From Salinisphaera sp. Q1T1-3 (GTDB lineage: Bacteria > Pseudomonadota > Gammaproteobacteria > Nevskiales > Salinisphaeraceae), in the NCBI RefSeq assembly GCF_003602005.1, contig NZ_QZWD01000001.1:1-64000 (forward strand): 64,000 nt of DNA. The letters run 5' to 3'. The position numbers and the translations under genes are program-made. Positions within the stretch are counted from its first letter, which is position 1, and each line of letters starts with the position of its first letter. Positions 5,461 through 57,312 of this stretch are shown here, one piece after another. The notes under the pieces are model-generated. The model saw nothing but the letters and a program-made list of their open reading frames with translations. It was not told where the DNA came from and searched no databases.

Positions 5461-5594
5461 CAAGCAACTCTCATCATTTTTGACTTGGCGACCCATGCCC
5501 TAGCTTGAAGTATGCCGCAGTTTCTGGGGGCTTGTGCCGTATGAAGTGAATGCACCTAAACCCTCCAGATTTTATATATCATAACCTTGACCTA

Positions 5595-5880
5595 GGGTCT
5601 GCTGGGGTTTCGTTCGAGTGCCTTTTCGTCGAGAGACCGCAGTGTGTCCGACAAGGCGCGAGTTGCCGATCACGGCGTGCCACGATCCAGACTGGCAACG
5701 CCGCAGGGCCCGATTTGCCGGCCCAACCCAAAGGGACAAGCGCCCCAAAATTAAAATACGACGGCAATACAGCGTTCTAGCAGGCTGGCGCAGCATGACT
5801 GCGCGGTGCCTGCGACGCCTCGTATTGCCGCCCATCGTCAATTTCAGGGCGCGCTTGGCGCGGACTCGCACGAAACCTCT
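5595..5880 (+). repeat. CTAG-associated dispersed repeat, copy A
   Basis: Full-length copy of the dispersed repeat described under findings. Left end is the variant GGGTCTGCTGGGGTTTCG directly after the TA of a CTAG (5592-5595). The right end is shortened (ACTCGCACGAAACCTC) and runs into a second CTAG (5879-5882). Inside are the conserved blocks CCTTTTCGTCGAGAGACCGC, the palindromic block around GTGCCACGATC, GGGACAAGCGCCCCAAAAT, GGCAATACAGCGTTCTAGC and GCCCATCGTCAATTTCAGGG. Small frames across it are conserved only because the DNA is. The remaining parts of the gene-free interval 5461-6127 show nothing I can name. Confidence 0.85.
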
Positions 5881-6127
5881 AGGACGGCTGGGCTAACATT
5901 TGGCTATGTACTGAACGATTGAGCACGGCGGGCTCGCCGAGCCGTAGAGGCGTTTGGATCTGCATTGGATTGACCGAATCGACGACGCGAGTTCAAGCGC
6001 GGCGCGCAAAAGTTTTTTAAATCGTTCCTCGCCTTGTACGCTTCCAAAGCGTGCGTCATCGATACATTTCAAGGCAGCAGATGGTTGGGTCGTCTAGTCT
6101 CGCACGAGTCGCGCCTTTTCCGGCGGC

Positions 6128-7138
6128 TCAGCTCGGTTTGTAATAATCGAGATACCAGTCGACGAATTTTTCGACGCCTTCAGCGACCGATGTCTGAGGG
6201 CGGTAGTCGACGGCATTGAACAGACCATCGACACTGGCATGGGTTGCTTCAACATCCCCCGGCTGCATGGGCAGCATTTCCTTGTCAGCCGTCACGTCTA
6301 GGCATTTTTCCAGCTCTTCAATATAGTCCATCAATGGCACGGGATTGCCGTTGCCGATGTTATAGACGCGCCATGGAGCCGGGCTGCTGTCGGGTTGCGG
6401 GACATCACTGTTCCACGCGGCGTCGGGCGTGGCGGGTTGGTAGAGGATGCGAACGATGCCCTCGACGATATCGTCGACGTAGGTGAAATCGCGGCGGTGA
6501 TGTCCGTGATTGAAGACCGGTATCGATTCGCCGGCCAGCATTTTCTTCGTGAATAGGAACAGCGCCATGTCGGGCCGTCCCCACGGGCCGTAGACGGTAA
6601 AGAACCGGAGTCCGGTGGTTGGTAGCCGATGGAGGTGGGCGTAGGAATGCGCCATCAATTCGGTAGCGCGTTTCGTCGCGGCATAGATCGCGAGTGGGTG
6701 GTCGGCATCGCCTGAGGGGTCGAACGGCATGTCTGTCGAGGCGCCGTAGACCGAACTCGTCGAGGCATACACGAGATGTGCGGCTTTGGTGTGGCGGCAG
6801 CCCTCGAGAACGTTGAGCGTGCCCGTGACGTTGGCATCCACGTAATCATGGGGATGATCGATGGAGTGCCTGACGCCGGCCTGCGCGGCGAGATGAACGA
6901 CCCGATCGAAGCGATGTGTCTCGAACAATTCACGCATGCCGTCGCGATCCGAGATATCCAGCTCAACCTGAGTGAAGTCGTTATATTCAAGCAGCTGGTT
7001 CACACGGGCATGTTTGAGTGCAACATCATAATAAGGGTCGTAATTGTCGACGCCGACGACGGTTTCGCCGGCTGCGAGTAATCGCTTGGCGACATGGAAA
7101 CCGATGAAACCAGCGCTGCCCGTGACAAGAATGCTCAC
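6128..7138 (-). CDS. UDP-glucuronate 4-epimerase (NAD-dependent epimerase/dehydratase)
   Basis: 336 residues, the family's usual length. Extended short-chain dehydrogenase: GSAGFIG at 7-13 binds NAD, and the catalytic triad is visible as the Ser of ASTSSVYG (about 126-132) with Y152 and K156 in YAATK. LAAQAGVRHSIDHPHDYVD, LRFFTVYGPWGRPDMALFLF and RRDFTYVDDIVEG are hallmarks of the CapI/LspL/WbnF group that interconverts UDP-glucuronate and UDP-galacturonate. I start at the GTG 7138 because SILVTGSAGFIG is the typical N-terminus; the longer open frame upstream is not conserved-looking. No good Shine-Dalgarno is visible. It is divergent from manC (231 bases apart) and supplies an acidic sugar donor for the polysaccharide. 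Confidence 0.85.
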   Translation of the reverse strand: MSILVTGSAGFIGFHVAKRLLAAGETVVGVDNYDPYYDVALKHARVNQLLEYNDFTQVELDISDRDGMRELFETHRFDRVVHLAAQAGVRHSIDHPHDYVDANVTGTLNVLEGCRHTKAAHLVYASTSSVYGASTDMPFDPSGDADHPLAIYAATKRATELMAHSYAHLHRLPTTGLRFFTVYGPWGRPDMALFLFTKKMLAGESIPVFNHGHHRRDFTYVDDIVEGIVRILYQPATPDAAWNSDVPQPDSSPAPWRVYNIGNGNPVPLMDYIEELEKCLDVTADKEMLPMQPGDVEATHASVDGLFNAVDYRPQTSVAEGVEKFVDWYLDYYKPS

Positions 7139-7369
7139 AATCGACTGTCGGTAGAGAATCAACGGCGCGATTGTAACAGCACGGCGCCGTCGAACAGCCC
7201 GGCTCGGATGGCGAAGAAATCGTGACAGGGGCCAGTAATGTGCCGCTTTGTAGTACGATTTCGCGGCGCCCGGGTCTTGATGTTCGACTTGGGGATATAG
7301 ACGGATCATTCCAGTCTGACGCGCTTTCGCGTGCGGACGATTTTCTAACGCGCAACAGAACGAATTTCT

Positions 7370-8791: not shown

Positions 8792-8837
8792 GGGGCGTCT
8801 TTCGACGTCTGATGAAACTGCAACGATTGGATGCGTG

Positions 8838-10112: not shown

Positions 10113-10179
10113 CCGAGGCCAGTCATGACGACGGCGAATACCCTGCGATCAGCCAGTTTCGACTGGGTACGGGTCGACT

Positions 10180-10488
10180 AAGGTCTCTTGGGGTTTCGTG
10201 CGAGTCCGCGCCAAGCGCGTCCTGAAATTGACAATGGGCGGCAAGACGAGGCGTTGCCGGCGCCGGGCAGTCATGCTGCGCCAGCGGGCTACAACGCTGT
10301 ATTGCCGTCGTGTTCTTGATTTCGGGGCGCTTGTCCCTTCGGGTTGGGCCGCCCATGAAAAATCGACGATGGGCGCCCTGCGGCGTTGCGAGTCTGGATC
10401 GTGGCACGCCACGATCGGCGACTCGCGCCTTGCCGGACACACTGCGGTCTCTCGACGAAAAGGCGCTCGAACGAAACATCAAAAGGCC
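10180..10488 (-). repeat. CTAG-associated dispersed repeat, copy B (fills 10113-10488)
   Basis: Full-length copy in the opposite orientation to copy A. The end at 10488 (complement GGGCCTTTTGATGTTTCG) directly adjoins the TAG stop of the minus-strand hypothetical gene (10489-10491), inside CTAG 10489-10492. The other end is the variant AGGTCTCTTGGGGTTTCG following CTA at 10178-10180. It carries the palindrome ATCGTGGC-AC-GCCACGAT at about 10398-10415 and the extra GCCCATGAAAAATCGACGATGGGC hairpin, written here as GCCCAT ... ATGGGC arms around 10348-10376. The 67 bases between tviB and this copy hold nothing recognised. Confidence 0.85.
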
Positions 10489-11157
10489 CTAGAAAGCGAA
10501 CAGGACGCCCATGCCGACTGCCATTTGATCGCGAAGGCTCTGCTGATCGTCGCGGAGCTGTTCTTTGGGCAGCGCAAGGCCGCCCTGAATGCCGACGCTC
10601 TTGTTGACCCAGTTCTGAGCCATGAAACCGCGCAAGCCGGTATAGCTATTGAAAAGCTTCTGCTCGTCGGTCAGCTGCTCCCCGTCATCGATATTTGGAT
10701 TGAGCTGGCTTGCAAGGCTTGCTGTAGGCGAGGCCGTCTTCGTTCCGTTTGGACCGGTTCGCTGATAGCCCAACGCCATATCCGGCGTCGCATCTGGCGG
10801 CGGCAGCGTCAGCTCAAGTGGGCGGGGTACCAAATGCTGATCGATGCTAACGAGTTTTTCCGACTTGCCCGATTTTTTCTCGATTCGCGGTTTGGGCTTC
10901 GTAAGCGTACCCATCGGTGACCATCGTAGGCTCGCAGAAGATGACAAAACCGAGTAGAAGCCGAAATTCGATGTTTTAGCAAGCGCCGGAGGAGAGGGCT
11001 CCGGTTCGGCAAATGGCGTCGATGTGTTAGTAAGGCGGTTATCGATATCAAATCGGTTTACTGCAATCCAGGTAGTTCCCGCGGCCGCAATAAGCAACAT
11101 GCAGGCCCCGACGCGTGAAGCATTGATCTGACCGATTCGAGTTGGAAATGCCTTCAT
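10489..11157 (-). CDS. Hypothetical membrane-anchored protein
   Basis: 222 residues, not recognised. One hydrophobic stretch near the N-terminus (about residues 15-33, ASRVGACMLLIAAAGTTWIAV) after a basic start reads as a signal anchor or uncleaved signal, so most of the protein is probably periplasmic. It is followed by a proline-rich segment (about 50-60), a lysine/arginine-rich segment (about 84-100) and another proline cluster PRPLELTLPPPD. It lies 179 bases downstream of, and on the same strand as, the pilin oligosaccharyltransferase candidate, so it may belong to that surface locus (inference only). The TAG stop is formed at the junction with dispersed repeat copy B, so the native 3' end may have been set by that insertion. 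Confidence 0.5.
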   Translation of the reverse strand: MKAFPTRIGQINASRVGACMLLIAAAGTTWIAVNRFDIDNRLTNTSTPFAEPEPSPPALAKTSNFGFYSVLSSSASLRWSPMGTLTKPKPRIEKKSGKSEKLVSIDQHLVPRPLELTLPPPDATPDMALGYQRTGPNGTKTASPTASLASQLNPNIDDGEQLTDEQKLFNSYTGLRGFMAQNWVNKSVGIQGGLALPKEQLRDDQQSLRDQMAVGMGVLFAF

Positions 11158-11217
11158 TGAAGATCGGTAAACGATCGATTGCTTGGAGGGTATCAGATTA
11201 CCACGGAGCTCTTAGCA

Positions 11218-11242
11218 AATACTTTTTGAATGCAAAAGTATT
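11218..11242. repeat. Perfect inverted repeat in the intergenic region
   Basis: AATACTTTT, a 7-base loop TGAATGC, then AAAAGTATT: nine paired bases in an AT-rich interval between the oligosaccharyltransferase candidate and the hypothetical gene. It could be a weak terminator of the upstream gene or an operator; no T-run follows on the minus strand, so I cannot decide. Confidence 0.4.
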
Positions 11243-11336
11243 ACGTTCGCGCGTGAATCAGATAGCACAGTAAGTGTTAACTGCCCGGTTGATGCTTAAG
11301 ATTCTTTGGGATATCTCTTCACATATTGGGATTAGG

Positions 11337-12794: not shown

Positions 12795-12830
12795 GCTATT
12801 ATTTAAATCTGTTTCGCGATTTGACGACTT

Positions 12831-13295: not shown

Positions 13296-13388
13296 GGTGT
13301 CAGTTCCCCCACGAATGTGACGACTCGCACTTGCACGGCGGGTCGGAATAGACCGTTCCTACGGGTCGAACGGCGACAATAGAAATCA

Positions 13389-13408: not shown

Positions 13409-13469
13409 AGTCAAGTATTATTCGATGACACGCTGTCTGGCAATGGCATCGGCCACCAGTCGCGCTGTG

Positions 13470-21487: not shown

Positions 21488-21650
21488 AGGGCCTGTTGAT
21501 GTGTCGTTCGAGCGTCTTTTCGTCGAGAGACCGCCGTGTGTCCGGCAAGGCGCGAGTCGCCCATCGTGGCGTGTCACGATTCAGGCTCACAACGCTGCAG
21601 GGCGCGATGTCGGGCGCAACCCGAAGGGACGAGGCTTGTGTGTCCCGCAA
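21488..21650 (+). repeat. CTAG-associated dispersed repeat, copy C (3' part degraded)
   Basis: Begins GGGCCTGTTGATGTGTCG after the TA of CTAG (21486-21489), then CTTTTCGTCGAGAGACCGCC, GTGTCCGGCAAGGCGCGAGT, the palindrome ATCGTGGC-GTG-TCACGAT region, and CGCAACCCGAAGGGAC. Similarity fades after about 21650 and no right end is visible. The rest of the gene-free interval to 21822 is unremarkable. Confidence 0.75.
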
Positions 21651-21822
21651 TCCGGCGTTGCCGCTGCGCTCCGGCTGCCTTGTCTTGCCTGAAGGGCGGC
21701 CGGCGACTCACGCGGATAGGGGGACCGACCGTGGTCGAAGCCGGTCGCGATGCATCATGTGGCTTCCTGCCGTTGTTATCCGCGAACCGCGTGACGACGC
21801 CACAATCGGCGGCGGCGACGCA

Positions 21823-23920: not shown

Positions 23921-23995
23921 TTTGTGTGGCAGAAGTTATAAGAAAAATAACCAAGCGACGCGTGTGTTCTCTACATTCAGTACATGGGCTCGTTA

Positions 23996-24673
23996 ATGAA
24001 AAACATCGTTCGTAAAGCCGCTTTTGTCGGGGCCGTCTTTCTTGTCAGCGGTGGTATCGCCCAGGCGACGCAGATTACTTTCGAGCAGTCCCTGGATCGC
24101 GACAGCGTGCCTACCTCGTCGGTTTCGGGTGTCCGCAGCGTCGATTTCAACAGTGGTCTCTGCGGCTATGCCAGTTGCACCGGCAACTACGAGATTTTGA
24201 GCGACAGCGTGCTACACCCGGGCCCATATACCGGTTCCCGACGCGATCCGACCAAGTTCTTGAGTGTCGTCGGCGTCGCACCGGCCACCTTTGGTCTCGG
24301 TCAGAGTGCCAATTATTTCGGTCTGCTATGGGGCTCGGCCGATCCGGGTAACCTGATCCGGTTTCTCGACGGTCGCAATGTGGTGGCCAGTTACAACGGC
24401 GCCAGCATCTTTTCCGGTGCAACCGATGGCAGCCAGAGCCTGGCGGCCAGCAACCGTTACGTGAATTTCTTCAATCTACCGTCCTTCATTACGGTTGAGT
24501 TCTCCAGCTCGACCTATGGCTTCGAGAGCGATAACCATACGTTTGGTAACGTCAGCTTCCGTGACGTGCCCGAGCCCGGCTCGCTGGCGATGTTTGCGCT
24601 GGGCCTTTGTGGTCTCGGCTGGCTCGTACGACGTCGTCAGGGCAAGCCGGCGGACTCGGCAGCGCAGCTCTGA
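23996..24673 (+). CDS. PEP-CTERM sorting-domain protein
   Basis: 225 residues from ATG 23996 (ATG 23984 is in frame, four residues longer; neither has a strong Shine-Dalgarno). Signal peptide MKNIVRKAAFVGAVFLVSGG-IAQA, a Gly/Ser/Asn-rich beta-type body with two cysteines close together (GLCGYASC), and a C-terminal PEP-CTERM tail: VPEP at about 191-194, a hydrophobic helix SLAMFALGLCGLGWLV and the basic RRRQGK. Exosortase is expected to cut at VPEP and release or attach the protein outside the cell; such proteins go with exopolysaccharide systems. No exosortase gene is in the window. It sits between the response regulator and the kinase of the probable acetate-switch pair. Confidence 0.85.
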   Translation: MKNIVRKAAFVGAVFLVSGGIAQATQITFEQSLDRDSVPTSSVSGVRSVDFNSGLCGYASCTGNYEILSDSVLHPGPYTGSRRDPTKFLSVVGVAPATFGLGQSANYFGLLWGSADPGNLIRFLDGRNVVASYNGASIFSGATDGSQSLAASNRYVNFFNLPSFITVEFSSSTYGFESDNHTFGNVSFRDVPEPGSLAMFALGLCGLGWLVRRRQGKPADSAAQL

Positions 24674-24980: not shown

Positions 24981-25150
24981 CGGCACAACCCGTCGGAACA
25001 AGCGCCTCCGGATCAAAAATGAAGCGGCAGTTCAAGGTGGCAGCACGCTGACGTGGAACCGCACGCGATGCGTGCGACGCCTCGTCTTGCCGCTCATCGT
25101 CAATGTCAGGCGCGCCGGACCGGGACGCACACGAAACATTGAAAGATCCG
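24981..25150 (+). repeat. CTAG-associated dispersed repeat, copy D (degraded right half)
   Basis: Recognisable blocks are GGAACAAGCGCC, CGACGCCTCGTCTTGCCGC, TCATCGTCAATGTCAGGCGC and the end CGCACACGAAACATTGAAAG, ten bases from the stop of the downstream minus-strand kinase gene. The left half is missing or unrecognisable. The rest of the gene-free interval 24674-24980 shows no gene. Confidence 0.6.
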
Positions 25151-32277: not shown

Positions 32278-33675
32278 ATGCCGACGGCGAACTATCCGGT
32301 CTCGCTGAAGCTCGACGGTTGCCGTGTGCTCGTGGCCGGCGGCGGCCGGATCGCCACGCGTCGGATTCCGCGGCTGCTGGCCGCCGGGGCACGCGTGCAT
32401 GTCGTGGCCCCCGAAATCGCCCCCGATCTGCGCGCTGCTGTCGACGACGATGCGCTCACGTGGTCGGCACGCGCGGTCGACCCGGCGGACATCGACGGTT
32501 GTCGTCTGGTGTTCGCGGCGACCGACGACAGTGCGATCAATCGCGAGCTCGCCGTCGCGGCCCGATCGCGTGGCGCACTGGTCCAGCGGGCCGACCATGC
32601 CGCCGATTCGGATTTTCTGGTGCCGGCGCTGGTAGAGCGCGGTCCGTTGCAGATCGCCATCGCCAGTGCGGCGTCGGCGCCGAGCCTGACGCGACGCCTG
32701 CGCGCCCGGCTTGAGACCCTGGTGCCGGCAGCCTACGGCGACCTCGCGCGACTCGCCGGAGGTTTCCGCGAGGCCGTGCGGACACGCGTGCCACGTGAGC
32801 GACGAGGGGCGTTCTGGAACCGGGTTTTCGACGGACCGATTGCCGAGCAGGTCTTCGCGGGACGCTACGAGGCCGCCGAACGCGCGCTCGAGACGGCACT
32901 GGCCGATGCGCATGCGGGACTGGAGGCCGTGCGCGGCGAGGTCTATCTGGTCGGCAGCGGACCCGGAGATCCGGATCTGTTGACCTTCCGCGCGCTCCGG
33001 CTCATGCAACAGGCCGATGTCGTGCTCTACGACAGCCTGACGGCACCGGAGATTCTGGCACTGGTCGCGCCCGAGGCCGAGCGGGTTCATGTCGGCAAGC
33101 GCGCCGATCGTCACACGCTGGCCCAGTCGCGTATCAACACATTGATGGTCGAACTCGCGCAGGCGGGGCGGCGCGTGCTGCGGCTCAAGGGCGGGGACCC
33201 GTTCGTGTTCGGACGTGGCGGCGAGGAGATTGCGGAGCTGGCCGAGGCCGGCGTGTCGTTCCAGATCGTCCCGGGCGTGACCGCCGCCAACGGTTGTGCC
33301 GCCTACGCGGGCATACCACTGACGCACCGCGATTTCGCGCAATCGGTGATATTCGTCACCGGGCATCTACAGGCCGGCGAACTGAAACTGTCGTGGCCGG
33401 AACTGGCGCGTCCCGGCCAGACGGTCGTGTTCTACATGGGGCGTCGCAATCTGGATATCATCTGTCGGTCGCTGACGACGCATGGGCTGGCCAGCGACTG
33501 GCCGGCCGCCATGGTGATCGACGGCACGACACGACAGCAGCGGTTGATCGTCGGCACCCTGGCGGATCTGCCGGCACGTGTCGCGGCCGAACCGGCGACC
33601 GGGCCAGCGCTACTCATCGTCGGCGAGGTCGTGCGTCTCCACGACACGCTCGGCTGGTTCGAACCGACGCCGTAA
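32278..33675 (+). CDS. cysG: Siroheme synthase (trifunctional)
   Basis: 465 residues, full length. N-terminal precorrin-2 dehydrogenase/ferrochelatase CysG_B: LKLDGCRVLVAGGGRIATRRI (NAD site), central AYGDLARLAGGFREAVRT, and C-terminal uroporphyrinogen-III methyltransferase CysG_A: YLVGSGPGDPDLLTFRALR, VHVGKRADRHT, VLRLKGGDPFVFGRGGEE and TAANGCAAYAGIPLTHRD. It makes siroheme for sulfite and nitrite reductases, linking it to the cysB/tauE neighbours. I start at ATG 32278 (MPTANYPVSLKLDG); an in-frame ATG at 32248 adds ten residues. The 171 bases from the permease hold no recognised signal. Confidence 0.95.
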   Translation: MPTANYPVSLKLDGCRVLVAGGGRIATRRIPRLLAAGARVHVVAPEIAPDLRAAVDDDALTWSARAVDPADIDGCRLVFAATDDSAINRELAVAARSRGALVQRADHAADSDFLVPALVERGPLQIAIASAASAPSLTRRLRARLETLVPAAYGDLARLAGGFREAVRTRVPRERRGAFWNRVFDGPIAEQVFAGRYEAAERALETALADAHAGLEAVRGEVYLVGSGPGDPDLLTFRALRLMQQADVVLYDSLTAPEILALVAPEAERVHVGKRADRHTLAQSRINTLMVELAQAGRRVLRLKGGDPFVFGRGGEEIAELAEAGVSFQIVPGVTAANGCAAYAGIPLTHRDFAQSVIFVTGHLQAGELKLSWPELARPGQTVVFYMGRRNLDIICRSLTTHGLASDWPAAMVIDGTTRQQRLIVGTLADLPARVAAEPATGPALLIVGEVVRLHDTLGWFEPTP

Positions 33676-33722
33676 GCCCGCTCGGCGGTGCAAGCCGTCG
33701 GATCGCGTGACGACGCGCCCTC

Positions 33723-33993
33723 GGGCCGGTTGATGTGTCATGCGAGTCCGCGCCAAGTGCGCCCGGAAATTGACGATGGGCGGCCAGACGAGGCGTCGCA
33801 CGCATGGCGTGTCATGCGGCGCCAGCGTGCTGGAACGCTGTATTGCCGTCGTGTTTTTGATTTTGGGGCGCTTGTCCCTTCGGGTTGGGCCGCAGATCCC
33901 GCCCCGCGGCGTTGCCAGTCCGGATCAAGGCACGCCACCCACGACACGGGTTGTGGCGCAAACGCGGCGCTCGTATGCAACATCAACAGACCC
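33723..33993 (-). repeat. CTAG-associated dispersed repeat, copy E
   Basis: Full-length copy in the orientation of B, 47 bases after the cysG stop. Left end GGGCCGGTTGATGTGTCATG, right end TGCAACATCAACAGACCC with the variant block CGCAAACGCGGCGCTCG next to it. The middle extra hairpin of copies B and F is replaced by CAGATCCCGCCCC. The flanks are CTC and TGG, so the CTAG is not preserved here. Apart from this repeat and the terminator, the gap 33676-34099 is empty. Confidence 0.8.
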
Positions 33994-34034
33994 TGGGCTC
34001 GATCTCGTACCGGCCGCATGCGGGGAGTCGAACA

Positions 34035-34066
34035 ATAAAAAAGCCCGACCGTGACACGGTCGGGCT
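34035..34066 (-). terminator. Rho-independent terminator of the Bax-inhibitor-type gene
   Basis: On the minus strand AGCCCGACCGTG, one-base loop, CACGGTCGGGCT followed by a run of T (TTTTTTATT). Twelve perfect pairs plus U-run, 34 bases beyond the gene's stop: the clearest intrinsic terminator in the window. Confidence 0.9.
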
Positions 34067-34099
34067 CGTTCGAGTCGCACCTCTGTCAGGCGCGTGCCA

Positions 34100-34774
34100 T
34101 CAGTCGTCGCCGCCGAAGACGCCAAGCAGCTGCAGGAGACTGAGGAACAGGTTGTAGATCGTGACGAACAGCGTCACGGTCGCGAGGATGTAGTTCGTCT
34201 CGCCGCCGTGAATGATTTCGCCCGTCTGATAGACGATGAGCCCGCTCATCAGCAGCACGAACATCAACGAGACAGCCAGCGACAGGGCAGGAATCGAGAA
34301 CACCACGGCGATGATGCTCATCACGAAGGCAACCAGAATACCGACGGTCAGCATGCCGGCCCACTGGTTGAAGCGACGACCGGACATGAGCGTGAAGGCA
34401 GACAGGCCGATGAAGATCGCGCCGGTGCCACCCATGGCCATTGTGACCAGCTGCGCGCCGTTCGAGAACTGCTGAAGATACATGTCGATGATCGGGCCGA
34501 GCGTATAGCCCATGAAGCCCGTCAGCGCGAAGATGCTGACAAGCCCCCAGCCGCTGTTCGCGGTCGCGTTGACGGCGAAAAGCAGGCCGAAATAACCGAC
34601 CAATGTGATGATCAGGCCCGGGTAGGGCAGATGAAGCGCTGCGGTGAAGCCGGCCACGACCGCCGAAAACAACAGCGTTGCCGACAACAGCATGTAGGTG
34701 TTGCGCAGGACGTTGTTGGTGGCAAGCGCTGTCTGGGCGCGACTGGTATAGGTGGTTGTCTGTTCCACGCTCAT
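34100..34774 (-). CDS. yccA: Bax inhibitor-1 family membrane protein (YccA-like)
   Basis: 224 residues with seven predicted membrane helices, the BI-1/YccA topology: RNTYMLLSATLLFSAVVAG first, LTGFMGYTLGPIID in the middle and a last helix ILATVTLFVTIYNLFLSLL, cited in part, ending GVFGGDD. The two conserved acidic residues of the family (in GPIID and the C-terminal part) are present. E. coli YccA is a substrate and modulator of FtsH; the BsYetJ relatives are pH-dependent calcium leak channels. Monocistronic, with its own terminator. The 588 bases upstream contain only copy F. Confidence 0.88.
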   Translation of the reverse strand: MSVEQTTTYTSRAQTALATNNVLRNTYMLLSATLLFSAVVAGFTAALHLPYPGLIITLVGYFGLLFAVNATANSGWGLVSIFALTGFMGYTLGPIIDMYLQQFSNGAQLVTMAMGGTGAIFIGLSAFTLMSGRRFNQWAGMLTVGILVAFVMSIIAVVFSIPALSLAVSLMFVLLMSGLIVYQTGEIIHGGETNYILATVTLFVTIYNLFLSLLQLLGVFGGDD

Positions 34775-35018
34775 GGATTACCTCGTTGACGACGTCTTCG
34801 GGACGCAAAAGCGGCCTCGGAACAAGACCGTAGCACGCTCGCGAGAAAAGCCAATCTGTTGTTGAAGGATGCACCGATCGGTCGGGCCCTCAATCGTACG
34901 GATTGGACCGCAACGCGGCCCGAAAGTTCGTTTCGACGGGCCGTGGCAGCCCCGGGAAAATCGAGACGTCGGCGACCCGACATCCCGGCCCGGCGCATGA
35001 CGGGTCCAAGCTGCGCCA

Positions 35019-35326
35019 GGGCCTGTTGATGTTTTGTGCGAGCGCCTTTTCGTCGAGAGACCGCCGTGTGTCCGGCAAGGCGCGAGTCGCCGATCGTGGC
35101 GCGCCACGATCCAGACGCGCAACGCCGCGGGGCGCCCATCGTCGATTTTTCATGGGCGGCCCACCCCGAAGGGACAAGCGCCCCAAAATCAAGAACAAGA
35201 CGGCAATACAGCGTTCTAGCCCGCTGGCGCAGAATGACACGCTATGCGTGCTATGCCTCGTCTTGCCGCCCATCGTCAATTTCAGGGCGCACTTGGCGCG
35301 GACTCGCACGAAACATCAACAGGCCC
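35019..35326 (+). repeat. CTAG-associated dispersed repeat, copy F (best-preserved)
   Basis: Starts GGGCCTGTTGATGTTTTGTG and ends CACGAAACATCAACAGGCCC followed by TAG, giving terminal inverted repeats of about 24 bases with one or two mismatches. Inside, in order: CTTTTCGTCGAGAGACCGCC, the perfect palindrome ATCGTGGCG-CGCCACGAT (about 35092-35109), a GCCCAT...ATGGGC hairpin, GGGACAAGCGCCCCAAAATC, CAATACAGCGTTCTAGCCCG and GCCCATCGTCAATTTCAGGG. Left flank is CCA instead of CTA. It lies between yccA and the hybrid kinase; the rest of 34775-35362 shows nothing. Confidence 0.9.
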
Positions 35327-35362
35327 TAGGCTGCGGTCTGGGGAGTCCGATTCGGATCGCGA

Positions 35363-38300
35363 ATGCAGTCGGTAAAGCACGGCCCGGCAGAGGCTGTTTC
35401 GAGACAGGGGATCAGCCTGCGGACACGTCTGATGGGCGCGTTCATCATCATCCTGGCGATGTTCGCCCTGGCGGGCATCGTGAGTGTGTGGGCTTTCTAT
35501 GGCGTCGAGCGGGCCGCGACCGAAGCATCGAGTCTGAATGATGTCCGTGCCGATCTCGACGGACTGGAGATTTCCGTCGTGCGTCAGGAAGGCGCGCTGC
35601 GCGGACTGGTGCTGAGCGGCGGTAACCAGCGTTATCTGGACACGCTGAGCGACATGAGTGGTCGCATCGACGAACAGCTCGCCGGATTGCAGGCGCTGAC
35701 GCTGTGGTCGGCCGGCGAGATCCAGAGCCTGAATGCGCTGCAGACGCTCGAGAAGAAATGGCGCTACACCGTGGCCCAACCGATCATGGCCAAGATTCAG
35801 CGTGGCGAACTGGCATCGGCGCGCCAGACATTGAACGACGGCGCCAGTCTGTCGATCTACGACCCGATGCGCGATGCATTGTCGACATTCCGGCATACCG
35901 TCAATAACGCACTCGACGTGCGACAGACCGAGCTGGCGGCACAGGAACGGGCCGCGCGCACAACCCTGATCGGTATGCTCGTCTTCGCGATCCTGGTCGG
36001 GCTGGCGGCTATCTGGATGACGCAGCGCCGCGTCACGAGTCCGCTGGCCGCTCTGACGGCAACGACTGAGCGGCTGACCCGCGGCGAGCGCGATCTGGGC
36101 GTTGCGCATCAGGACCAGCGAGACGAGATCGGGACGCTGGCGCGTGCGATCGAGCGCTTCCGGCTCGGCCTGATCACACAGGATCGACAGAGCTGGGTCG
36201 GGGATCATCGCGGCCGGCTGGTCGCGATGATGCACGACTTCGAGGATGACAAGGCGCTGGCCGAGGCGCTGCTCGCCGAAATCGCGCCGTTGATGGGGGC
36301 CGGAGCCGCCGCGTTGCTCGCCCCGATTTCCGCGGGCGCCGATGACGACGAAACGCGCGCTTTTCACGCGCTCGCCTGCTACGGCTGCAGCCGGCCCGCG
36401 GACTGGCAGGTGCGGCCCGGCGAAGGCCTGATCGGCCAGGTCCTGGTGAATCCGCGGCCGCTCACGCTCGACGGGGTGCCGTCTGAATATGCTGCGATCG
36501 AGACCGCAACGGGCGCGGCCCGCCCACGGCTCGTGATGATCGCCCCGGCCGAGGTCGGCGGGCACGTCGAGGCGGTGCTTGAGCTCGCGCTGTTCGAGCC
36601 TCCGAGCCCGTGGGCGCTCGAATTGTTCGAATCGATTCTGCCCAACGCCGCGCTGGCATTGCTTGCGTTGGCACGTGGGCGACGGACGCGGACGCTGCTC
36701 GCCGAATCGCAGGCCCGGACCGAGGCGCTGCGCGAGTCCGAAACCGCGCTGCGACGCCAGCAGAACGCGATGCAGGAGGCCAATGCCGAACTGCGCGCCC
36801 AGAGCGAAGAACTCGGCGCCCAGGCTGAGGAGCTTCGAGCCTCGGAAGAGGCGCTCAAGGTCCAGTCGGATGCCCTGCAGGCGACCAATGAAGAACTGCG
36901 GACCAAGCAGGAGATCATGAGCGGACAGCAGGAGGAGCTGTCGCGCATGAACACCGAGGCGCGCGAACGGGCCGACGCACTGGCTCGGGCGAATCAGTAC
37001 AAGTCGGAATTCCTGGCCAACATGTCGCATGAGCTGCGCACGCCGCTCAACAGCCTGTTGATCCTGTCGCGCAGTCTTGCCGATAACGACGAAGGCAATC
37101 TGGACCCGGAACAGGTCGAGGCAGCCACGATCATCCATGAATCGGGCAGCAATCTGCTGGCATTGATCAACGATATTCTCGATCTATCGAAGATCGAGGC
37201 CGGCAAGATGACGGTTTCGCCGATGCCGACAGCGATTTCCGCACTGGTGCGGCGTATCGAGCGCGATTTTACTCACGTGGCCCAGCGCAAAGGCCTCCGG
37301 TTCGCGGTGGACGTCGCCGATGGCGCGCCGGCCGAAGTTGTCACCGACAGCGGCAAGCTCGAGCAGATCGTGCGCAATCTGGTGAGCAATGCGATCAAGT
37401 TCACCGCCAGCGGCGAGGTGCGGGTGGAAATCGCTCCGGCGCCGGCCGATATTGCGCTGCGGCGCACCGACACGACGGCGGACGCGTTGTTCGCGGTCCA
37501 TGTGATCGATCAGGGCATCGGCATTCCCGAAGCCCGGCTGGAGCAGATTTTCCAGGCATTCGAACAGGTCGATGCGAGCACGAGCCGTCATTACGGCGGT
37601 ACCGGGCTCGGCTTGTCGATCTCGCGTGAGCTCACGAGCCTGCTGGGCGGCGAAATCCACGTTCGCAGCCGGCTCGGCGAGGGCAGTCGCTTCACAGCCC
37701 TCGTCGCCCGACGGCTGCCGATTGACGAGATCGGCTCGTCGGTCAGCGTTGAGGCGCTCGAACCGGGCCATACCGGCGATACCGCACGGCCAGCGCCGGA
37801 TACCGGCGTCCCCTCGGCCGACCGAGGGGACGTGGCGACGTCACGCGCGCGTCCGTTGTTGCTGATCATCGACGACGACACGACATTCGCCCGCGTAGTG
37901 CGCGATGTGGCGCACCAGCGCGGTTTCGACGTGGCGAGTGCGTTCGACGGAGAGCGCGGACTGGATATCGCCCGGCAGAGCACGCCCGATGCCATCGTGC
38001 TGGATCTGGGGCTGCCCGGCATGGACGGCTGGGCCGTGCTCGATCGCCTCAAGGCCAGTGCGCGCACGCGCGAGATTCCGGTGCATATCGTCTCGGCAGC
38101 CGACGACCCCGGTCAGGCGCGGCGGGCCGGGGCGGTCGGTTATCTGCAGAAGCCGATCGCGCAAGCGGATCTCGATACCCTGTTCACTCGCGCAGAGACA
38201 TTGAGCGGCCGGCCTGCCCAGCGGATTCTCGTCATCGACGACGATCAGGACGCGCAGACCGCCATCGGCCATCTGTTGCGCCGCGAGGCGATCGAGATCA

Positions 38301-42000: not shown

Positions 42001-43914
42001 GTGATGGCCAGCCAATACGATGCCGCCGATATCGAGGTGCTCTCCGGGCTCGACCCGGTGCGTAAGCGCCCGGGCATGTTCACCGAAACGTCCCGCCCGA
42101 ACCATCTCGCGCAGGAAGTCATCGACAACAGTGTCGACGAGGCACTGGCCGGTCATGCCAAATCGATCGAAGTCACACTGCATGCCGACGGTAGCCTGTC
42201 CGTGGTCGACGACGGCCGTGGCATGCCGGTCGATACGCACAGCCAGCACGGGGTATCCGGGGTCGAACTGATCCTGACCCGGTTGCACGCGGGCGGCAAA
42301 TTCTCGAGCAAGAACTATCAGTATTCGGGTGGCCTGCACGGGGTCGGCGTTTCGGTGGTCAACGCGCTGTCGACCGAACTGGTGGTCCAGGTCTGGCGCG
42401 ACGCCAAACATTACGAGATGCGTTTCGCCAACGGTGAGAAGACCAGCGATCTGGCGGTCATCGGGCAGTGCGCGAAAAGCCGTACCGGCACGATGCTGCG
42501 TTTCACGCCGGATACGCATTATTTCGATAATCCGCGGATCGCCACGCCGCGCCTGAAGCATCTGCTGCGGGCCAAGGCCGTGCTTTGTCCGAACCTGAAG
42601 GTCCGCTTCGTCGACGAGGCAGCGCAGGAAGACATCGTCTGGCAATACGCCGATGGGCTGGCCGATTACATGGCCGATGCGCTCGAGGGCGTGGACACTG
42701 TCATCGCGCCGGCGTTTACCGGCGGCGAGAACGAAGGCGGCCAGACCGTCGACTGGGCGCTGACCTGGATCGCCCCGGACCAGCCCGGCGTGGACGGCGT
42801 GACCGAGTCCTACGTCAATCTCATCCCCACCGCGTCGGGCGGCACCCACGTCAACGGCCTGCGCACGGGCCTCACCGAGGCCGTGCGCGAGTTCTGCGAG
42901 TTCCGGAACCTGTTGCCACGCGGCGTCAAGATCACGCCGGAGGACGTGTGGTCGGGCTGCACCTATGTGCTGTCGGTCAAGATGAGCGAGCCGCAGTTCT
43001 CCGGCCAGACGAAGGAACGTCTGTCCTCGCGTGATATCAGCGGGTTCGTCTCGAATGCGGTCAAGGATGCCTTCTCGCTTTGGCTCAACCGCCATGCCGA
43101 GACCGGCGAGACACTGGCCCAGATCATCATCGGCAATGCCCAGGCGCGCGCCAAGAGCGCGAAGAAGGTCAAGCGCAAGAAAGTCACCCAGGGGCCGGCG
43201 CTGCCGGGCAAGCTCACCGATTGCGTGACCGACGACCCGACGCGCTCGGAGTTGTTTCTCGTGGAGGGCGACTCGGCCGGCGGCTCGGCCAAGCAGGCGC
43301 GCGATCGTAATTTCCAGGCCGTGATGCCGCTGCGCGGCAAGATTCTCAACGCCTGGGAGGTCGAGGCCGCCGATATCATGGCCTCCAACGAGATCCATGA
43401 TATTTCCGTGGCGCTCGGGCTTGAGCCCGGTTCCGAAAATCTCGAGCGCCTGCGCTATAACAAGGTCTGCATTCTGGCGGATGCCGATTCCGATGGATTG
43501 CACATCGCCACGCTGCTCTGTGCCCTGTTCGTCAAACACTTCCGACCGCTGGTCGCCCGCGGCCATGTCTTCGTCGCGATGCCGCCGCTGTTTCGGATCG
43601 ATGCCGGCAAGGAAGTCTTCTATGCGCTCGATCGCGACGAACGCGATGCGACCATCAAGCGCCTGGAAAACGAAAAGAAACAGCGCAAGATCAGCGTGAC
43701 CCGGTTCAAGGGGCTGGGTGAAATGAGCGCTCTGCAATTGCGCGAGACCACCATGGCGCCGGACACCCGCCGCCTCGTCCAGCTCGGTATCGAGCCGGAG
43801 GATGGCGCGACCGTGGGCGTGGACGAACTGCTCGACATGCTGCTGGCAAAAAAACGGGCCGCCGATCGCCGGGACTGGCTGGAGGCACGCGGTCACGAGG
43901 CGGAAGTCGACTAG
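42001..43914 (+). CDS. parE: DNA topoisomerase IV subunit B
   Basis: 637 residues. GHKL ATPase (EVIDNSVDEALAGHAKSI, VVDDGRGMPVDTH, YQYSGGLHGVGVSVVNALS), transducer domain and TOPRIM with LFLVEGDSAGGSAKQARDR and the metal-binding DADSDG. GYSGVE-type and GLHGVG sequence details and the short length distinguish ParE from GyrB. With ParC it decatenates sister chromosomes. The TAG stop (43912-43914) is formed at the edge of dispersed repeat copy G. parC follows 617 bases downstream in the same direction, an unusual gap partly filled by the repeat. Confidence 0.97.
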   Translation: MMASQYDAADIEVLSGLDPVRKRPGMFTETSRPNHLAQEVIDNSVDEALAGHAKSIEVTLHADGSLSVVDDGRGMPVDTHSQHGVSGVELILTRLHAGGKFSSKNYQYSGGLHGVGVSVVNALSTELVVQVWRDAKHYEMRFANGEKTSDLAVIGQCAKSRTGTMLRFTPDTHYFDNPRIATPRLKHLLRAKAVLCPNLKVRFVDEAAQEDIVWQYADGLADYMADALEGVDTVIAPAFTGGENEGGQTVDWALTWIAPDQPGVDGVTESYVNLIPTASGGTHVNGLRTGLTEAVREFCEFRNLLPRGVKITPEDVWSGCTYVLSVKMSEPQFSGQTKERLSSRDISGFVSNAVKDAFSLWLNRHAETGETLAQIIIGNAQARAKSAKKVKRKKVTQGPALPGKLTDCVTDDPTRSELFLVEGDSAGGSAKQARDRNFQAVMPLRGKILNAWEVEAADIMASNEIHDISVALGLEPGSENLERLRYNKVCILADADSDGLHIATLLCALFVKHFRPLVARGHVFVAMPPLFRIDAGKEVFYALDRDERDATIKRLENEKKQRKISVTRFKGLGEMSALQLRETTMAPDTRRLVQLGIEPEDGATVGVDELLDMLLAKKRAADRRDWLEARGHEAEVD

Positions 43915-44137
43915 GGCCTGTTAATACGTCCCGCGTGCGCCGCGTCGGCGGCTCGGCGTGCGACACGAGGCGGCGGGGCGCCGTGTCGATATGTGACACG
44001 AGCGCGCGGCAACGCAGATTGCGGGACGAGCCGCAGCCCCTCGAATGGCGCCAGGATCGGGCCCCGCGGCGTAGTGCAACTTGCCGAATCGCGATTCTGG
44101 GCAGCAATACGACGCGCGTGGATAGGGCCAACAGGCA
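43914..44137 (+). repeat. Dispersed repeat copy G (R2-type interior)
   Basis: Begins GGGCCTGTTAATACGTCCCG, its first G completing the parE stop TAG within CTAG, and ends GTGGATAGGGCCAACAGGCA. The interior differs from the main family; the last 55 bases (44083-44137) match the reverse complement of 21411-21465. The remainder of the parE-parC gap (to 44531) has one hairpin, CCTTGCC-CACA-GGCAAGG (44188-44205), possibly a parE terminator without U-run, and no gene. Confidence 0.65.
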
Positions 44138-49475: not shown

Positions 49476-49513
49476 GCCGACAGGCCAGCCACGGCCCGGC
49501 GTCGCGGCGTTCG

Positions 49514-50389: not shown

Positions 50390-50666
50390 CGGCTCCTCAA
50401 GGGTCGGGTGGCAGTCTCGTGGCCGGTCTTGCCGGGCGTGTGGCGGACACCTTCTGCATTCTACGTGACCGCGCTGCCGATCGATGACCGCGGGCGGGCG
50501 GAAACCGGCCGTCGAGGCGCTATGGCCGGCCGCGAGCCAGCCTCGGCCCGCACGACCGTGTCAGGTGAAGGCGACGGGCGCATCGCGACAACGCGCCGAG
50601 AACATCCCCCCGAAGCGGCGCGTGGTTTATCCTGTTGTGCTATCGCTTCGATGATCAGCTAACGGC

Positions 50667-51596: not shown

Positions 51597-51598
51597 CC

Positions 51599-52699: not shown

Positions 52700-52730
52700 T
52701 GTAGAGCGGGCAGGGACAAGGGGGATGCGC

Positions 52731-53711: not shown

Positions 53712-53744
53712 GCCAGGCGCTGGCGAGCGGTTCTCAGGACGCGA

Positions 53745-53787
53745 TCTGTAGCGCCAACGCGGCGCTCGCACGACACATCGACAGGCT
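53745..53787 (-). repeat. Solitary end of the dispersed repeat (copy I)
   Basis: Only about 43 bases: complement reads AGCCTGTCGATGTGTCGTG, then CGAGCGCCGCGTTGGCGC, which folds as GCGCC-AACGC-GGCGC. It directly adjoins the TAG stop of the LysR gene, again in CTAG (53788-53791). The same variant end occurs in copies E and H. Confidence 0.65.
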
Positions 53788-54681
53788 CTAGTTGTCGAGG
53801 CCCGCGGCGATCTCGGTTGCCTCGGTCTCGAGCATGGCCACCAGCGCCCGGGCAGCATTCGACAGGGTGCGCTGGGGATGGCGCATGACCCCGAGGGTCC
53901 GGGCCATCGTCACGCCAGGCACTGCCAGCGGAGTGAGCGCGTTTGGCATGGCTCGCGGCAGCACCGTCCAGCCGAGCCCTACATCCGCCAGCATCCGCAG
54001 GGTCTCGAGCGAGTGACTTGTCATGCGAGGCCTCGGCACCGCGCCGGCACTCGCGAATGCCGAGGCGACGATCGCGAAAGTGTAGCTTTCCGGCGGCGGC
54101 AGTACGGCCGCGTGCCGGGCCAGCTCATCGGCCGTGACAGTCTCGCGGCCGGCCAGCGCATGCGCGTTGCCGACATAGATGTCGAGCGGATCGTGCCAGA
54201 TCGGCAGCGCGATCAGTCGCGGATGGGGCGTGACCGGCAGGGTGATGACCGCCAGCTCGCTTTCGCCGTTGACCACCTGGGCACAGGCCAGCTCGGAATC
54301 GGCGAACGAGATCTGTGGCGATACGGCCGGGTAGCGCGCGACGAAGCGGCGCAGTACGGCCGGCATCCGATGCATGCCGACATGATGAGACAGCGCGATA
54401 TCGAGCTGGCCCTCGATGCGCTCTGACAGATTATCCAGCGCCCGGTCGCCATCGGCGAGCGCGGCGATCGTCTGGCGGGCATGCGGCAGATAGGCCTGGC
54501 CGGCCTCGGTCAGATCGACCTCGCGTCCGGTTCGGTCGAGCAGTCGATGGCCCAGACGAGCCTCGAGCCCGGCCAGACGTTTGCTCACGGCCGGCTGGCT
54601 CAGGTGCAGACGCAGCGCGGCGGCGCCGAACGAGCCGGTTTCGGCGACGGCCACGAACGCAAGAAGAGCATCGATACGCAT
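53788..54681 (-). CDS. LysR-family transcriptional regulator, divergent from leuC
   Basis: 297 residues. Winged helix MRIDALLAFVAVAETGSFGA and AALRLHLSQPAVSKRLAGLEARLG, then a periplasmic-binding-type effector domain (ALSHHVGMHRMPAVLRRFVARYP, LALPIWHDPLDIYVG, VGLGWTVLPRAM). Effector unknown. It is divergent from leuC with 104 bases between, and a T-N11-A palindrome there (54693-54707) is the expected LysR site, so regulation of leucine biosynthesis is likely, with autoregulation. Its stop TAG lies at the edge of a dispersed-repeat end. Confidence 0.85.
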   Translation of the reverse strand: MRIDALLAFVAVAETGSFGAAALRLHLSQPAVSKRLAGLEARLGHRLLDRTGREVDLTEAGQAYLPHARQTIAALADGDRALDNLSERIEGQLDIALSHHVGMHRMPAVLRRFVARYPAVSPQISFADSELACAQVVNGESELAVITLPVTPHPRLIALPIWHDPLDIYVGNAHALAGRETVTADELARHAAVLPPPESYTFAIVASAFASAGAVPRPRMTSHSLETLRMLADVGLGWTVLPRAMPNALTPLAVPGVTMARTLGVMRHPQRTLSNAARALVAMLETEATEIAAGLDN

Positions 54682-54692
54682 TCACGTATTCT

Positions 54693-54707
54693 ATTCCGAA
54701 CTGGAAT
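54693..54707. promoter_or_regulatory. LysR-type operator between the regulator and leuC
   Basis: ATTCC-GAACT-GGAAT, a perfect dyad fitting the T-N11-A rule, 12 bases upstream of the LysR start and 79 before the leuC start. This place serves autorepression and activation of leuC at once. Confidence 0.55.
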
Positions 54708-54785
54708 CGATGACAGAAAAATATTCATTTGAGTAATGCGTCAGCCCTTTCTAGACTGCGCGCCACTGAAAACAGGAGCACGAGC

Positions 54786-56195
54786 ATGGGCCAGACGCTT
54801 TACGAGAAGATATGGAACGAGCATTGCGTCACGGACAACAGTGATGACGCGCTGCTCTACATCGACCGTCACATGGTCCATGAAGTCACCTCGCCCCAGG
54901 CCTTTGAAGGGCTGCGGCTGGCCGGCCGCGGCCTGTGGCGGACCAATGCGAATCTGGCGGTGCCGGACCACAACGTGCCGACGGTCAACCGCGACGGCGG
55001 TATTGCCGACCCGATTTCCCGCGCCCAGGTCGAAGCATTGCAGGCCAACTGCAACGCCTTCGGAGTCCGCCTGTTCGGCATGGGCGACCCGCGTCAGGGC
55101 ATCGTCCATATCATCGGCCCGGAGCAGGGCGCCACGCAGCCGGGCATGACCATCGTCTGCGGTGATTCGCACACCGCGACTCACGGCGCCTTCGGGGCGT
55201 TGGCCTTCGGTATCGGCACCTCGGAAGTCGAGCATGTTCTGGCCACGCAGACGCTGCCCCAGGCCCGGTCTAAGACCATGCTGGTGCGCGTCGACGGGCA
55301 CACCGCACCGGGGATTTCGGGCAAGGACATCATGCTCGCCATCATCGGCAAGATCGGCACTGCCGGCGGCACGGGCTATGTCATCGAGTACGGCGGCCAG
55401 GCGATCCGCGATCTGTCGATGGAAGGCCGCATGACGATGTGCAACATGTCCATCGAGGCCGGCGCACGCGCGGGCATGGTGGCCGTCGATGACAAGACGA
55501 TCGACTACATGCGCGGCCGGACGTATGCGCCGGACGAAACCCAGTGGGACGACGCCGAGCGCTACTGGCGCACGCTGGTTTCCGATGAGGATGCCGAATA
55601 CGATCGCGTGGTCACGCTCGACGCCGCCGAGATCGCGCCGCAGATCACCTGGGGAACCTCGCCCGAGATGGTGGTGCCGATTACCGCGCGTGTGCCGGAT
55701 CCGGCACACGCGCCCGATGCCGGTCAGGCAAAGAGCTGGACCCGAGCACTGGAATACATGGATCTGACTGCCGGTGTGCCAATGACCGAGATCATGCTGG
55801 ACAAGGTCTTTCTCGGCTCCTGTACCAATGCCCGCATCGAGGATCTGCGCGTCGCCGCACAATATCTGGCGGGCCGACGCATCGCGCCGAACATCAAGCT
55901 CGCCATGGTGGTGCCCGGTTCCGGTCTCGTGAAACTGCAGGCCGAAAAAGAGGGCCTGGATGCGATCTTCAAGGCCGCCGGTTTCGAATGGCGTGATGCC
56001 GGATGTTCCATGTGCCTGGGCATGAACGACGATAATCTGATGCCCGGCGAGCGCTGTGCCTCGACATCGAATCGCAATTTCGAGGGTCGTCAGGGCAAGG
56101 GCGGGCGTACCCATCTGGTCAGTCCCGCCATGGCGGCCGCCGCCGCGGTCTACGGCCACTTCGTCGATATTCGCGATCTGGATGGCGGCGCGTGA
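54786..56195 (+). CDS. leuC: 3-isopropylmalate dehydratase large subunit
   Basis: 469 residues from ATG 54786 (GGAG nine bases upstream). Aconitase-fold protein: [37 protein letters not shown], the three [4Fe-4S] cysteines in [15 protein letters not shown] and GCSMCLGMN, and [19 protein letters not shown], all conserved. With LeuD it isomerises 2- to 3-isopropylmalate. First gene of leuC-leuD-leuB; leuD starts 104 bases later. leuA is not adjacent. Confidence 0.97.
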
Positions 56196-56299
56196 CTCCG
56201 GGCCGCTCGATCGGGCCCCGGTTCGAGTTCGCGCCGCCGCTGCGTCGTCGCGGCGCTGATCGCATCGACTGATTTTCAACGAATTTCCGAGAGACCGAC

Positions 56300-56944
56300 A
56301 TGCAGGCATTCACCATTCACGAAGGGCTGGTCGCACCATTGGATCGCGCCAATGTCGATACTGACGCCATCATTCCGAAGCAGTATCTGAAATCGATCCG
56401 CAAGACCGGTTTTGGCCCGTACCTGTTCGACGACATGCGTTATCTCGACGCCGGCGGGCTGGATATCGATGTAGCCGATCGGCGCGAGGATCCGGATTTC
56501 GTGCTCAACCAGACGCCGTGGCGAGGGGCTTCGATCCTGCTCGCCCGCGAGAACTTCGGCTGCGGCTCCTCCCGCGAGCACGCCGTCTGGGCGCTCGAGA
56601 ACTACGGCTTTCGGGCCGTCATCGCGCCGAGCTTTGCCGATATCTTCTACAACAACTGCTTCAAGAACGGTGTGCTGCCGATCCGACTGGCCGACGACGA
56701 AGTGGATGCCCTGTTCGATGCCGCGCAGGATCCGCAGGGGCTGACCCTGCGCGTCGACCTGTTCGAGCAGCAGGTCAGTCGGGCCGACGGGCCGAGTTAT
56801 GCGTTCGCGATCGACGCCAATCGGCGTGCGAGCATGCTCGAAGGGCTCGATCACATCGGCGAAACGCTGCAACAGGCCGAGGCGATCCGGGCCTTCGAGA
56901 CGAAACGGGCCACGGATCGTCCGTGGCTGTTCCGCGATCTCTAG
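56300..56944 (+). CDS. leuD: 3-isopropylmalate dehydratase small subunit
   Basis: 214 residues. [40 protein letters not shown] and [21 protein letters not shown] form the swivel domain that closes over the LeuC cluster. GAGAG lies ten bases before the ATG. The stop TAG (56942-56944) is shared with the first base of dispersed repeat copy H, so the native end of the gene is where the insertion occurred. Confidence 0.96.
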
Positions 56945-57219
56945 GGCCTGCCGATGTTTCGTGCGAGTCCGCGCCAAGTGCGCTCGGAAATTGACGATGG
57001 GCGGCGAGACGAGGCGTCGTGCGCGCCGTGCAGTCATTCTGTGCCAGCGTGCTAGGGCCTGTTGATGTTTCGTCCGAGCGCCGCGTTGGCGCCACAAATC
57101 CCGCCCGGCGGCGTTGCGAGCCTTGATCGTGGCACGCCACGATACGGCGACTCGCGGCTTGTCCGACACACGGCGGTCTCTCGACGAAAAGGCGCTCACA
57201 CGAAACATCAACAGGCCCT
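56944..57219 (-). repeat. Dispersed repeat copy H, composite, between leuD and leuB
   Basis: First part (56944-57051) is one half of the repeat in the B orientation, starting GGGCCTGCCGATGTTTCGTG. At the repeat's own internal CTAG (57051-57054) a second complete end starts, GGGCCTGTTGATGTTTCGTC plus the variant CGAGCGCCGCGTTGGCGC, then the other half resumes (GCGTTGCGAG, palindrome ATCGTGGC-AC-GCCACGAT, CTCTCGACGAAAAGGCGCTC) and finishes CGAAACATCAACAGGCCC. It nearly fills the 368-base gap in the leu operon. Confidence 0.8.
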
Positions 57220-57312
57220 GGCGGGTTCTGGATTCGTGATCGGTGCGCGGTCGGCCGGTCACGGCATCGGCCCGTGCACCGTATTTTTCGCAACATGTTT
57301 CAAGGACGCCAT

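Follow-up and report, generated by a model that had tools for sequence, protein, structure and literature searches.

The 64-kb stretch of Salinisphaera DNA analysed here (the window) contains, dispersed among genes such as leuD (identified by TIGR00171 with 254.3 bits against a cut-off of 116.25), a family of short MITE-like repeats, whose 18-base end is matched ten times with at most 3 mismatches (chance mean 0.05). The first-pass annotation had listed nine places as copies of one family occurring in both orientations; a profile built from 88 copies and run on the window recovered eight of them, on both strands, each at E <= 1.7e-5 (Table 1). The ninth, 43914-44137, yielded two short pieces only, with E values of 0.28 and 0.19, and has no support as a copy (the same profile gave five matches at E<10 in a shuffled window); since the window copy there is unsupported, we rejected the parE-parC junction as a showcase empty site. 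The last listed place, 56944-57218, is two elements, the inner one nested within the outer, whose remaining half aligns with positions 308-199 of the reference MITE copy. The minus-strand 308-bp copy has TA on both sides if its outer base is placed at 10181, and the terminal TAG of the adjoining ORF 10489-11157 (minus strand) consists of the flanking TA and the first G of the copy; this ORF is absent from the gene calls and was therefore excluded from the stop counts given below.

Table 1. Repeat copies and adjoining stop codons in the window
Feature	Position	Strand	Evidence
287-bp MITE copy with decayed right end	5595-5881	+	profile E 1.9e-84 / 4.6e-79
Full MITE copy, 308 bp	10182-10489	-	profile match, end pair
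Partial MITE copy, left part	21489-21664	+	profile E 6.8e-31
Partial MITE copy, right part	24981-25146	+	profile E 1.5e-24
MITE copy, 271 bp, internal deletions	33723-33993	-	profile match, end pair
Full MITE copy, 308 bp, flanks CCA / TAG	35019-35326	+	end matches
Putative decayed end at the TAG stop of parE	43912-43931	+	only CTAGGGCCTGTT recognisable; profile E 0.28
Terminal fragment of a MITE copy	53733-53787	-	profile E 1.7e-5
TAG stop of LysR-type gene 53788-54681, flush with the element end	53788-53790	-	
TAG stop of leuD (56300-56944), third base being the element's first G	56942-56944	+	
Outer MITE, remaining half, stopping at its own internal CTAG	56944-57054	-	
164-bp MITE inserted at the outer copy's internal CTAG	57055-57218	-	

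Both terminal inverted repeats and a target duplication were found for the MITE copies, and 22 of 26 end pairs span 162-310 bp. In an 857.7-kb sample of the window's genome (G000), of which the elements make up about 2%, one of 111 ends lies inside a called gene, in agreement with the placement between genes described earlier, while the flanking dinucleotide is TA at 72 ends and CA at 19. Among 99 paired copies, 39 from G000 and 60 from relatives (the latter mostly best matches), TA is present on both sides in 37, on one side in 51 and on neither in 11. The 37 two-sided targets comprise CTAG (27), CTAA (4), TTAG (2), TTAA (2), CTAT (1) and CTAC (1); because they include 4-mers other than CTAG, it is TA rather than CTAG that is duplicated, which bears out the suggestion of a 2-base duplication mostly at CTAG.

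None of the eight DDE_Tnp_1 matches of the genome lies on the window's contig, as expected of MITE-like repeats lacking a transposase, and the full-length partner that had been postulated was found elsewhere: an 860-bp insertion sequence (IS; G000:C58:85631-86490) with 18-base ends as in the MITEs (GGCCCTGTTGAGGTTTCG and GGGCCTGTTGATGTTTCA) and TA on both sides. The predicted 267-aa transposase scores 248.6 bits with NF033580 (IS5 family; cut-off 110) and exceeds the cut-offs of Pfam DDE_Tnp_1 and DUF4096, and by these profiles the IS belongs to the IS5 family, one of the two candidates named at first pass; its length, which falls within about 830-865 bp, and the 2-bp duplication suggest that it is IS427-group-like. 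By eye, the MITE and the IS have their ends only in common; the MITE therefore did not arise from this IS by simple deletion. MITE ends of the ATG/AGG/CCG subtypes (both strands) number 141/92/0 in G000, 3/106/17 in G005 and 0/0/61 in G001, and the IS ends in the same genomes are two ATG and one AGG of three, six AGG of six, and two CCG of two, respectively. The two ends of a copy in G000 match each other no better than shuffled ends (3.28 mismatches in both cases, 39 copies), so that neither gene conversion nor RNA pairing is indicated there; relatives do show within-copy matching (e.g. G013, 1.86 against 4.10 mismatches, 0/2000 shuffles), which we read as an effect of the end subtypes. A search with the partner transposase gave no match in the genus members G013, G009, G010, G007, G008 and G003, and distant matches only in G012 (25% identity) and G011 (36-42%). 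Strict MITE ends are nevertheless present in G013 (96), G009 (84), G007 (72), G010 (18) and G008 (11), and the copies there have therefore lost their partner or use another one. G002, G004 and G006 possess the IS or its remains, yet have 0-1 strict MITE ends.

A whole-genome search with the terminal repeats returned 335 ends (170+165, at most 2 mismatches) against none for a reversed-pattern control. The family was matched in all 13 other Salinisphaera genomes compared, and the right-end motif (at most 1 mismatch) occurs in 11 of 85 genomes of the order, all within the genus, three members of which lack it at this threshold. Beyond the genus, a single diverged copy was detected in a different genus of the family (G016), and a third (G015) gave a match of 63 bases. 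A scan of genome contigs, which names organisms and gives no upper bound, yielded at least 80 loci. The 308-bp copy has no match among plasmids at E 1e-5 or among phage records, and no IMG/VR contig contains the exact right-end motif (records near the window's genome may be excluded in all three cases); plasmid IS5-type transposases, in contrast, one of them annotated as ISPa67, show 58-63% identity over most of the protein (15 matches listed).

What is new here is the frequency with which the elements form in-frame TAG stop junctions: in the 857.7-kb sample, 26 of 111 ends, or 25 of 72 end clusters (34.7%, the two ends of the IS being counted as two clusters), complete the TAG of a called gene, counts that are limited to called genes because the hexamer-based caller misses some. 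In the relatives, 19 of 71 insertions adjoin in-frame TAG stops; these were taken from retrieved loci, for the most part those of the best matches, and G011 L137 and G012 L141 among them may represent a single inherited insertion. Of ten IS copies or remnants examined, eight do not adjoin the stop of a called gene. The 72 end clusters (convergent context 27, tandem 32, divergent 12, edge 1) stand beside 134 element-free noncoding CTAG sites (convergent 33, tandem 70, divergent 23, edge 8), and by raw counts the insertions lean toward the convergent context. The stop-codon placement of many copies had been overlooked in the first reading of the window.

Comparison of orthologous junctions reveals sites with and without the element, the latter all in other species, not in other strains. 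An absence of empty sites in relatives, which the first-pass annotation would have taken as refuting insertion, is thus not what is seen. The leuD-leuB gap is 24-56 nt long and free of the element in G005, G002, G003, G008 and G010; it carries an element in G000 and a copy of opposite orientation in G012, a difference at odds with the vertical inheritance that had been raised as the alternative to insertion. Longer gaps with no element detected, in G007 (482 nt), G013 (341 nt) and G001 (155 nt), were not counted as clean empty sites. In G000 the partner IS sits between murI and pdxY, both of which keep TAG ends beside it; 2-6 nt separate the stops of the two genes in G013, G009, G010 and G007, and in G005 the junction holds a truncated MITE. 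At both the leuD and the murI-pdxY junction, insertions have thus occurred repeatedly, in different species. A copy is also found near the lysR stop in both G013 and G000, a site left unused for comparison because the G013 walk runs into the element.

A transposase that actively seeks translation stops, beyond any CTAG preference, would explain these repeated hits, as well as the excess of the 25 stop-completing end clusters over the noncoding TA sites, 204 of 3418 of which (6%) are stops (p 2.4e-13). Noncoding CTAG sites, however, including those now flanking elements, are stops in 69 of 198 cases (34.8%), which equals the observed proportion (p 1.0); CTAG preference alone accounts for the stop-junction frequency, so active targeting is not needed, and we regard it as unlikely. 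An IS630/Tc1-type transposase, the other candidate mover named at first pass, would suit the flanks, as IS630 elements duplicate TA too, but those identified so far alongside these ends belong to the IS5 family, which leaves it hardly credible.

The gene-end position of many copies might instead reflect an RNA with a regulatory or structural role, inherited vertically, or a terminator-like element, selected for function at gene ends. The plus-strand 308-bp copy folds strongly (z -6.2 and -6.6 for the two strands), internal sequence is well conserved across the genus (mean column identity 81%, 36 copies), and RNAalifold with the same 36 copies reports a double change in 13 of 58 pairs (10 of the 13 in the terminal repeats). 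Against this, inner pairs with two Watson-Crick types (at least 3 sequences each) number one for one strand and none for the other in an alignment of 88 copies, which mixes module variants and is of limited sensitivity, and the GU/AC asymmetry is opposite at two inner stems (14 vs 1, and 1 vs 22); summed over inner pairs, GU cells outnumber AC cells for either predicted strand (308/37 and 178/24), as would be expected of any fold favouring GU. The stop is faced by either end of the element (right 14, left 11, unclear 1), the window has no Rfam match at the gathering threshold, no terminator-like site was found inside the two copies within 33000-36000, and both presence and orientation of the element vary between species. 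A regulatory RNA is thus not supported, and we consider this origin very improbable.

We hold it highly probable that the repeats are non-autonomous IS5-family MITEs, moved in trans by the 860-bp IS and inserted at TA, mostly in CTAG; they constitute a new family of small parasitic elements whose mover is very probably a resident IS. As judged from the sequences, the partner transposase would mobilise MITEs of about 130-320 bp through the 18-base ends, which alone are common with the IS, and insertion at TA, mostly within CTAG, duplicates the TA. Where insertion hits the TA of a stop, TAA or TAG, an in-frame TAG is left on the gene side in either orientation, because both ends start with G. 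Insertions inside genes would be purged by selection, and intergenic ones, like those on stop codons, would persist, which would produce the observed distribution; we infer that selection rather than targeting shapes it. CTAG preference (CTAG is scarce in coding DNA) combined with automatic stop reconstruction may offer a simple, testable reason why a gene-dense genome can carry hundreds of transposon copies without gene breakage. It is possible, if rather doubtful, that G-starting ends together with TA duplication are adaptive, making safe harbours of stops, even of those with 2-6 nt gaps, and that the same holds for other TA-duplicating IS groups with G-starting ends; if so, an IS427-type family could fill a gene-dense, GC-rich genome. 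The genus also provides a natural record of MITE ends against resident transposases, and caution is advisable in interpreting how Salinisphaera uses TAG, where its genes end at the 3' side and where its assemblies break, as these are partly shaped by the element.

Among known systems, RUP of Streptococcus pneumoniae and Correia/NEMIS of Neisseria are likewise short, TA-duplicating, non-autonomous repeats, and RUP is similarly ascribed to a resident IS, in that case IS630-Spn1; the excerpted account of these repeats describes no stop-rebuilding end (PMC2229807). IS427-group members tabulated for Paracoccus measure 832-865 bp, have ends of 13-21 bp and in most cases duplicate 2 bp, and the partner IS (18-bp ends, TA duplication) resembles them, although it has a single frame, whereas some members have two overlapping frames, and the table gives no target consensus (PMC3281130). 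MITEPsy1 of Pseudomonas syringae, as excerpted, differs from the Salinisphaera MITEs in its length of 100 bp, its six copies, two of which interrupt loci, and a reported 4-bp duplication, with no stop-codon pattern given there; it resembles them in its supposed IS5-family origin, its 18-bp ends and its targets, CTAG or YTAA (PMC3189936).

The 18-base end GGGCCTGTTGATGTTTCG has 10 matches in the window at up to 3 mismatches, where 0.05 would be expected by chance, and 335 ends were found genome-wide at up to 2 mismatches, compared with none for a reversed-pattern control. The first-pass annotation had listed nine repeat places in the window; eight of them match the family profile, but the one at 43914-44137 does not. 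Profile and end searches of an 857.7-kb sample of the G000 genome (contig C11 1-464000, which includes the window, the whole of C58, and C43 1-200000) yielded 94 merged places, 72 with an end at up to 3 mismatches, and the element DNA amounts to 18,287 bases. Full copies are about 308-310 bp long, and in the shorter size classes, near 218, 256-275 and 164, internal blocks are missing. At 57055 one MITE copy is nested within an internal CTAG of another. In a C11 copy the middle block aligns inverted to the reference, which suggests an internal inversion of palindromic modules. At two places in G005, another Salinisphaera genome, element-end pairs lie back to back with 2 bases between them, consistent with insertion into the flanking TA of a pre-existing copy. 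The right end includes a 16-base motif, GCTTGGCGCGGACTCG, which is very constant between species, whereas the outer end varies; this motif is absent from the IS ends inspected.

Coordinates of the intact insertion sequence and of individual MITE copies
Feature	Location	Length	Flanks
Intact IS	G000:C58:85631-86490	860 bp	TA at both sides
Reference MITE copy	window 35019-35326	308 bp	
Copy with inverted middle block	G000:C11:164649-164868		
Back-to-back end pair	G005:C7:48543-48582		
Back-to-back end pair	G005:C7:150717-150756		

TA is kept at both sides in 37 of the 99 paired copies, and the targets after removal of the element are CTAG (27), CTAA (4), TTAG (2), TTAA (2), CTAT (1) and CTAC (1). 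This bears out the proposed 2-base TA target duplication, mostly at CTAG, and the ten non-CTAG targets show that the duplication is TA and that the element starts with GGG. CA in place of TA flanks 19 of the 111 ends in the sample, probably as a decayed form of the duplication. CTAG itself is scarce (280 found, 566 expected from trinucleotides).

The flanking TA together with the first base of the element, G, reads TAG. Among the 111 ends of the sample there are 26 that complete a called gene's stop codon in frame, TAG in all 26 cases, and these ends fall in 25 of 72 clusters (the two ends of the IS counted as two clusters); in the relatives 19 of 71 insertions, spread over 9 genomes, do the same. 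The share at a stop would be 6% from noncoding TA sites and 35% from noncoding CTAG sites, and the observed clusters give 34.7%; 62 coding CTAG sites are available in the sample, yet only 1 of the 111 ends lies inside a called gene. As the CTAG-site expectation equals the observed share, CTAG preference, selection against genic hits and stop reconstruction suffice as an explanation. Both IS copies of G000 abut stops (3/3 ends), and none of the remaining 8 IS copies or remnants checked abuts a called gene. Among the literature matches listed, for some queries the best 15-20 of up to 1,687, and in passages of PMC3189936, PMC10969869, PMC2229807, PMC9241763 and PMC3281130, neither a Salinisphaera MITE nor a transposon whose end restores a stop codon is described; as these sources cover only a minority of subscription journals, the absence is weak evidence. 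In a 2024 review of prokaryotic MITEs (PMC10969869) the term "stop codon" occurs 0 times.

Empty sites, which the first-pass annotation had proposed to seek in relatives, were found in other species 3' of leuD (identified by TIGR00171) and between murI and pdxY. The distance from leuD to the next gene is 24-56 nt, free of the element, in G005, G010, G008, G002 and G003, while in G000 and G012 the leuD stop itself carries an element, facing opposite ways in the two genomes, hence two events. Wider gaps with no element detected occur in G007 (482 nt), G013 (341 nt) and G001 (155 nt). In G011 two contig ends carry the same end type (C148:4469, 52 nt from leuB, and C85:6), as if the assembly were broken inside one and the same insertion near leuB. 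In G007, G009, G010 and G013 a distance of 2-6 nt separates the stop codons of murI (glutamate racemase) and pdxY, two convergent genes, and the junction shows no family match; between the two genes lie the IS in G000 and a truncated MITE in G005 (E 1.2e-48). Other repeat-like, AT-richer stretches (gcgaatcaacgcgaatg, ccacagattacgcagatt) were seen in the leuD-leuB gaps of G007 and G013 and the parE-parC gap of G002.

The suggested full-length partner does exist elsewhere in the genome: two of the 8 DDE_Tnp_1 matches in G000 adjoin family ends (at most 2 mismatches). The intact IS encodes a 267-aa IS5-family transposase, and the second element extends past a contig end. G005 has three IS copies with AGG ends (6/6), and CCG ends are found in IS remains of G001, G002 and G004 and in an IS of G006. 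In the three genomes that have both an IS and many MITE copies, the MITE end subtypes parallel those of the IS: strict ATG, AGG and CCG ends number 141, 92 and 0 in G000, 3, 106 and 17 in G005, and 0, 0 and 61 in G001. Against this parallel, however, no IS was detected in G013, G007, G008 and G010, whose MITEs are CCG-rich, or in G009, whose MITEs are of AGG and ATG type, and the IS of G002 is CCG, yet its single strict MITE end is AGG. Long and short right-module forms share one end type within G005, G007 and G013, so end type and internal form are independent there.

The reference copy folds strongly on both strands, as is expected of palindromic DNA. Summed GU cells exceed AC cells for both predicted strands, but the asymmetry at single pairs is inconsistent, inner covariation is almost nil, and the end facing the stop is balanced (right 14, left 11, unclear 1). 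We therefore infer that the structure reflects DNA-level palindromes rather than a conserved RNA.

A family match is present in all 13 other Salinisphaera genomes examined, and the right-end motif at up to 1 mismatch occurs in 11 of 85 genomes of the order, every one Salinisphaera. A sister genus (G016) has a single diverged copy, and G015, from another genus of the family Salinisphaeraceae, a 63-base match. The 308-bp MITE copy had no match in plasmid and phage records, nor had the exact right-end motif in IMG/VR contigs. In G009 many listed ends are found no more than about 130 bases from where a contig stops; counts of copies in draft genomes are therefore probably too low. The right-end motif was also seen in a record titled Endozoicomonas sp. 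G2_2 (L236, NZ_JAGHQU010000003.1), possibly a mislabelled Salinisphaera. The window also contains, at 23984-24673, a gene for an exosortase-dependent surface protein of the Npun_F0296 type.
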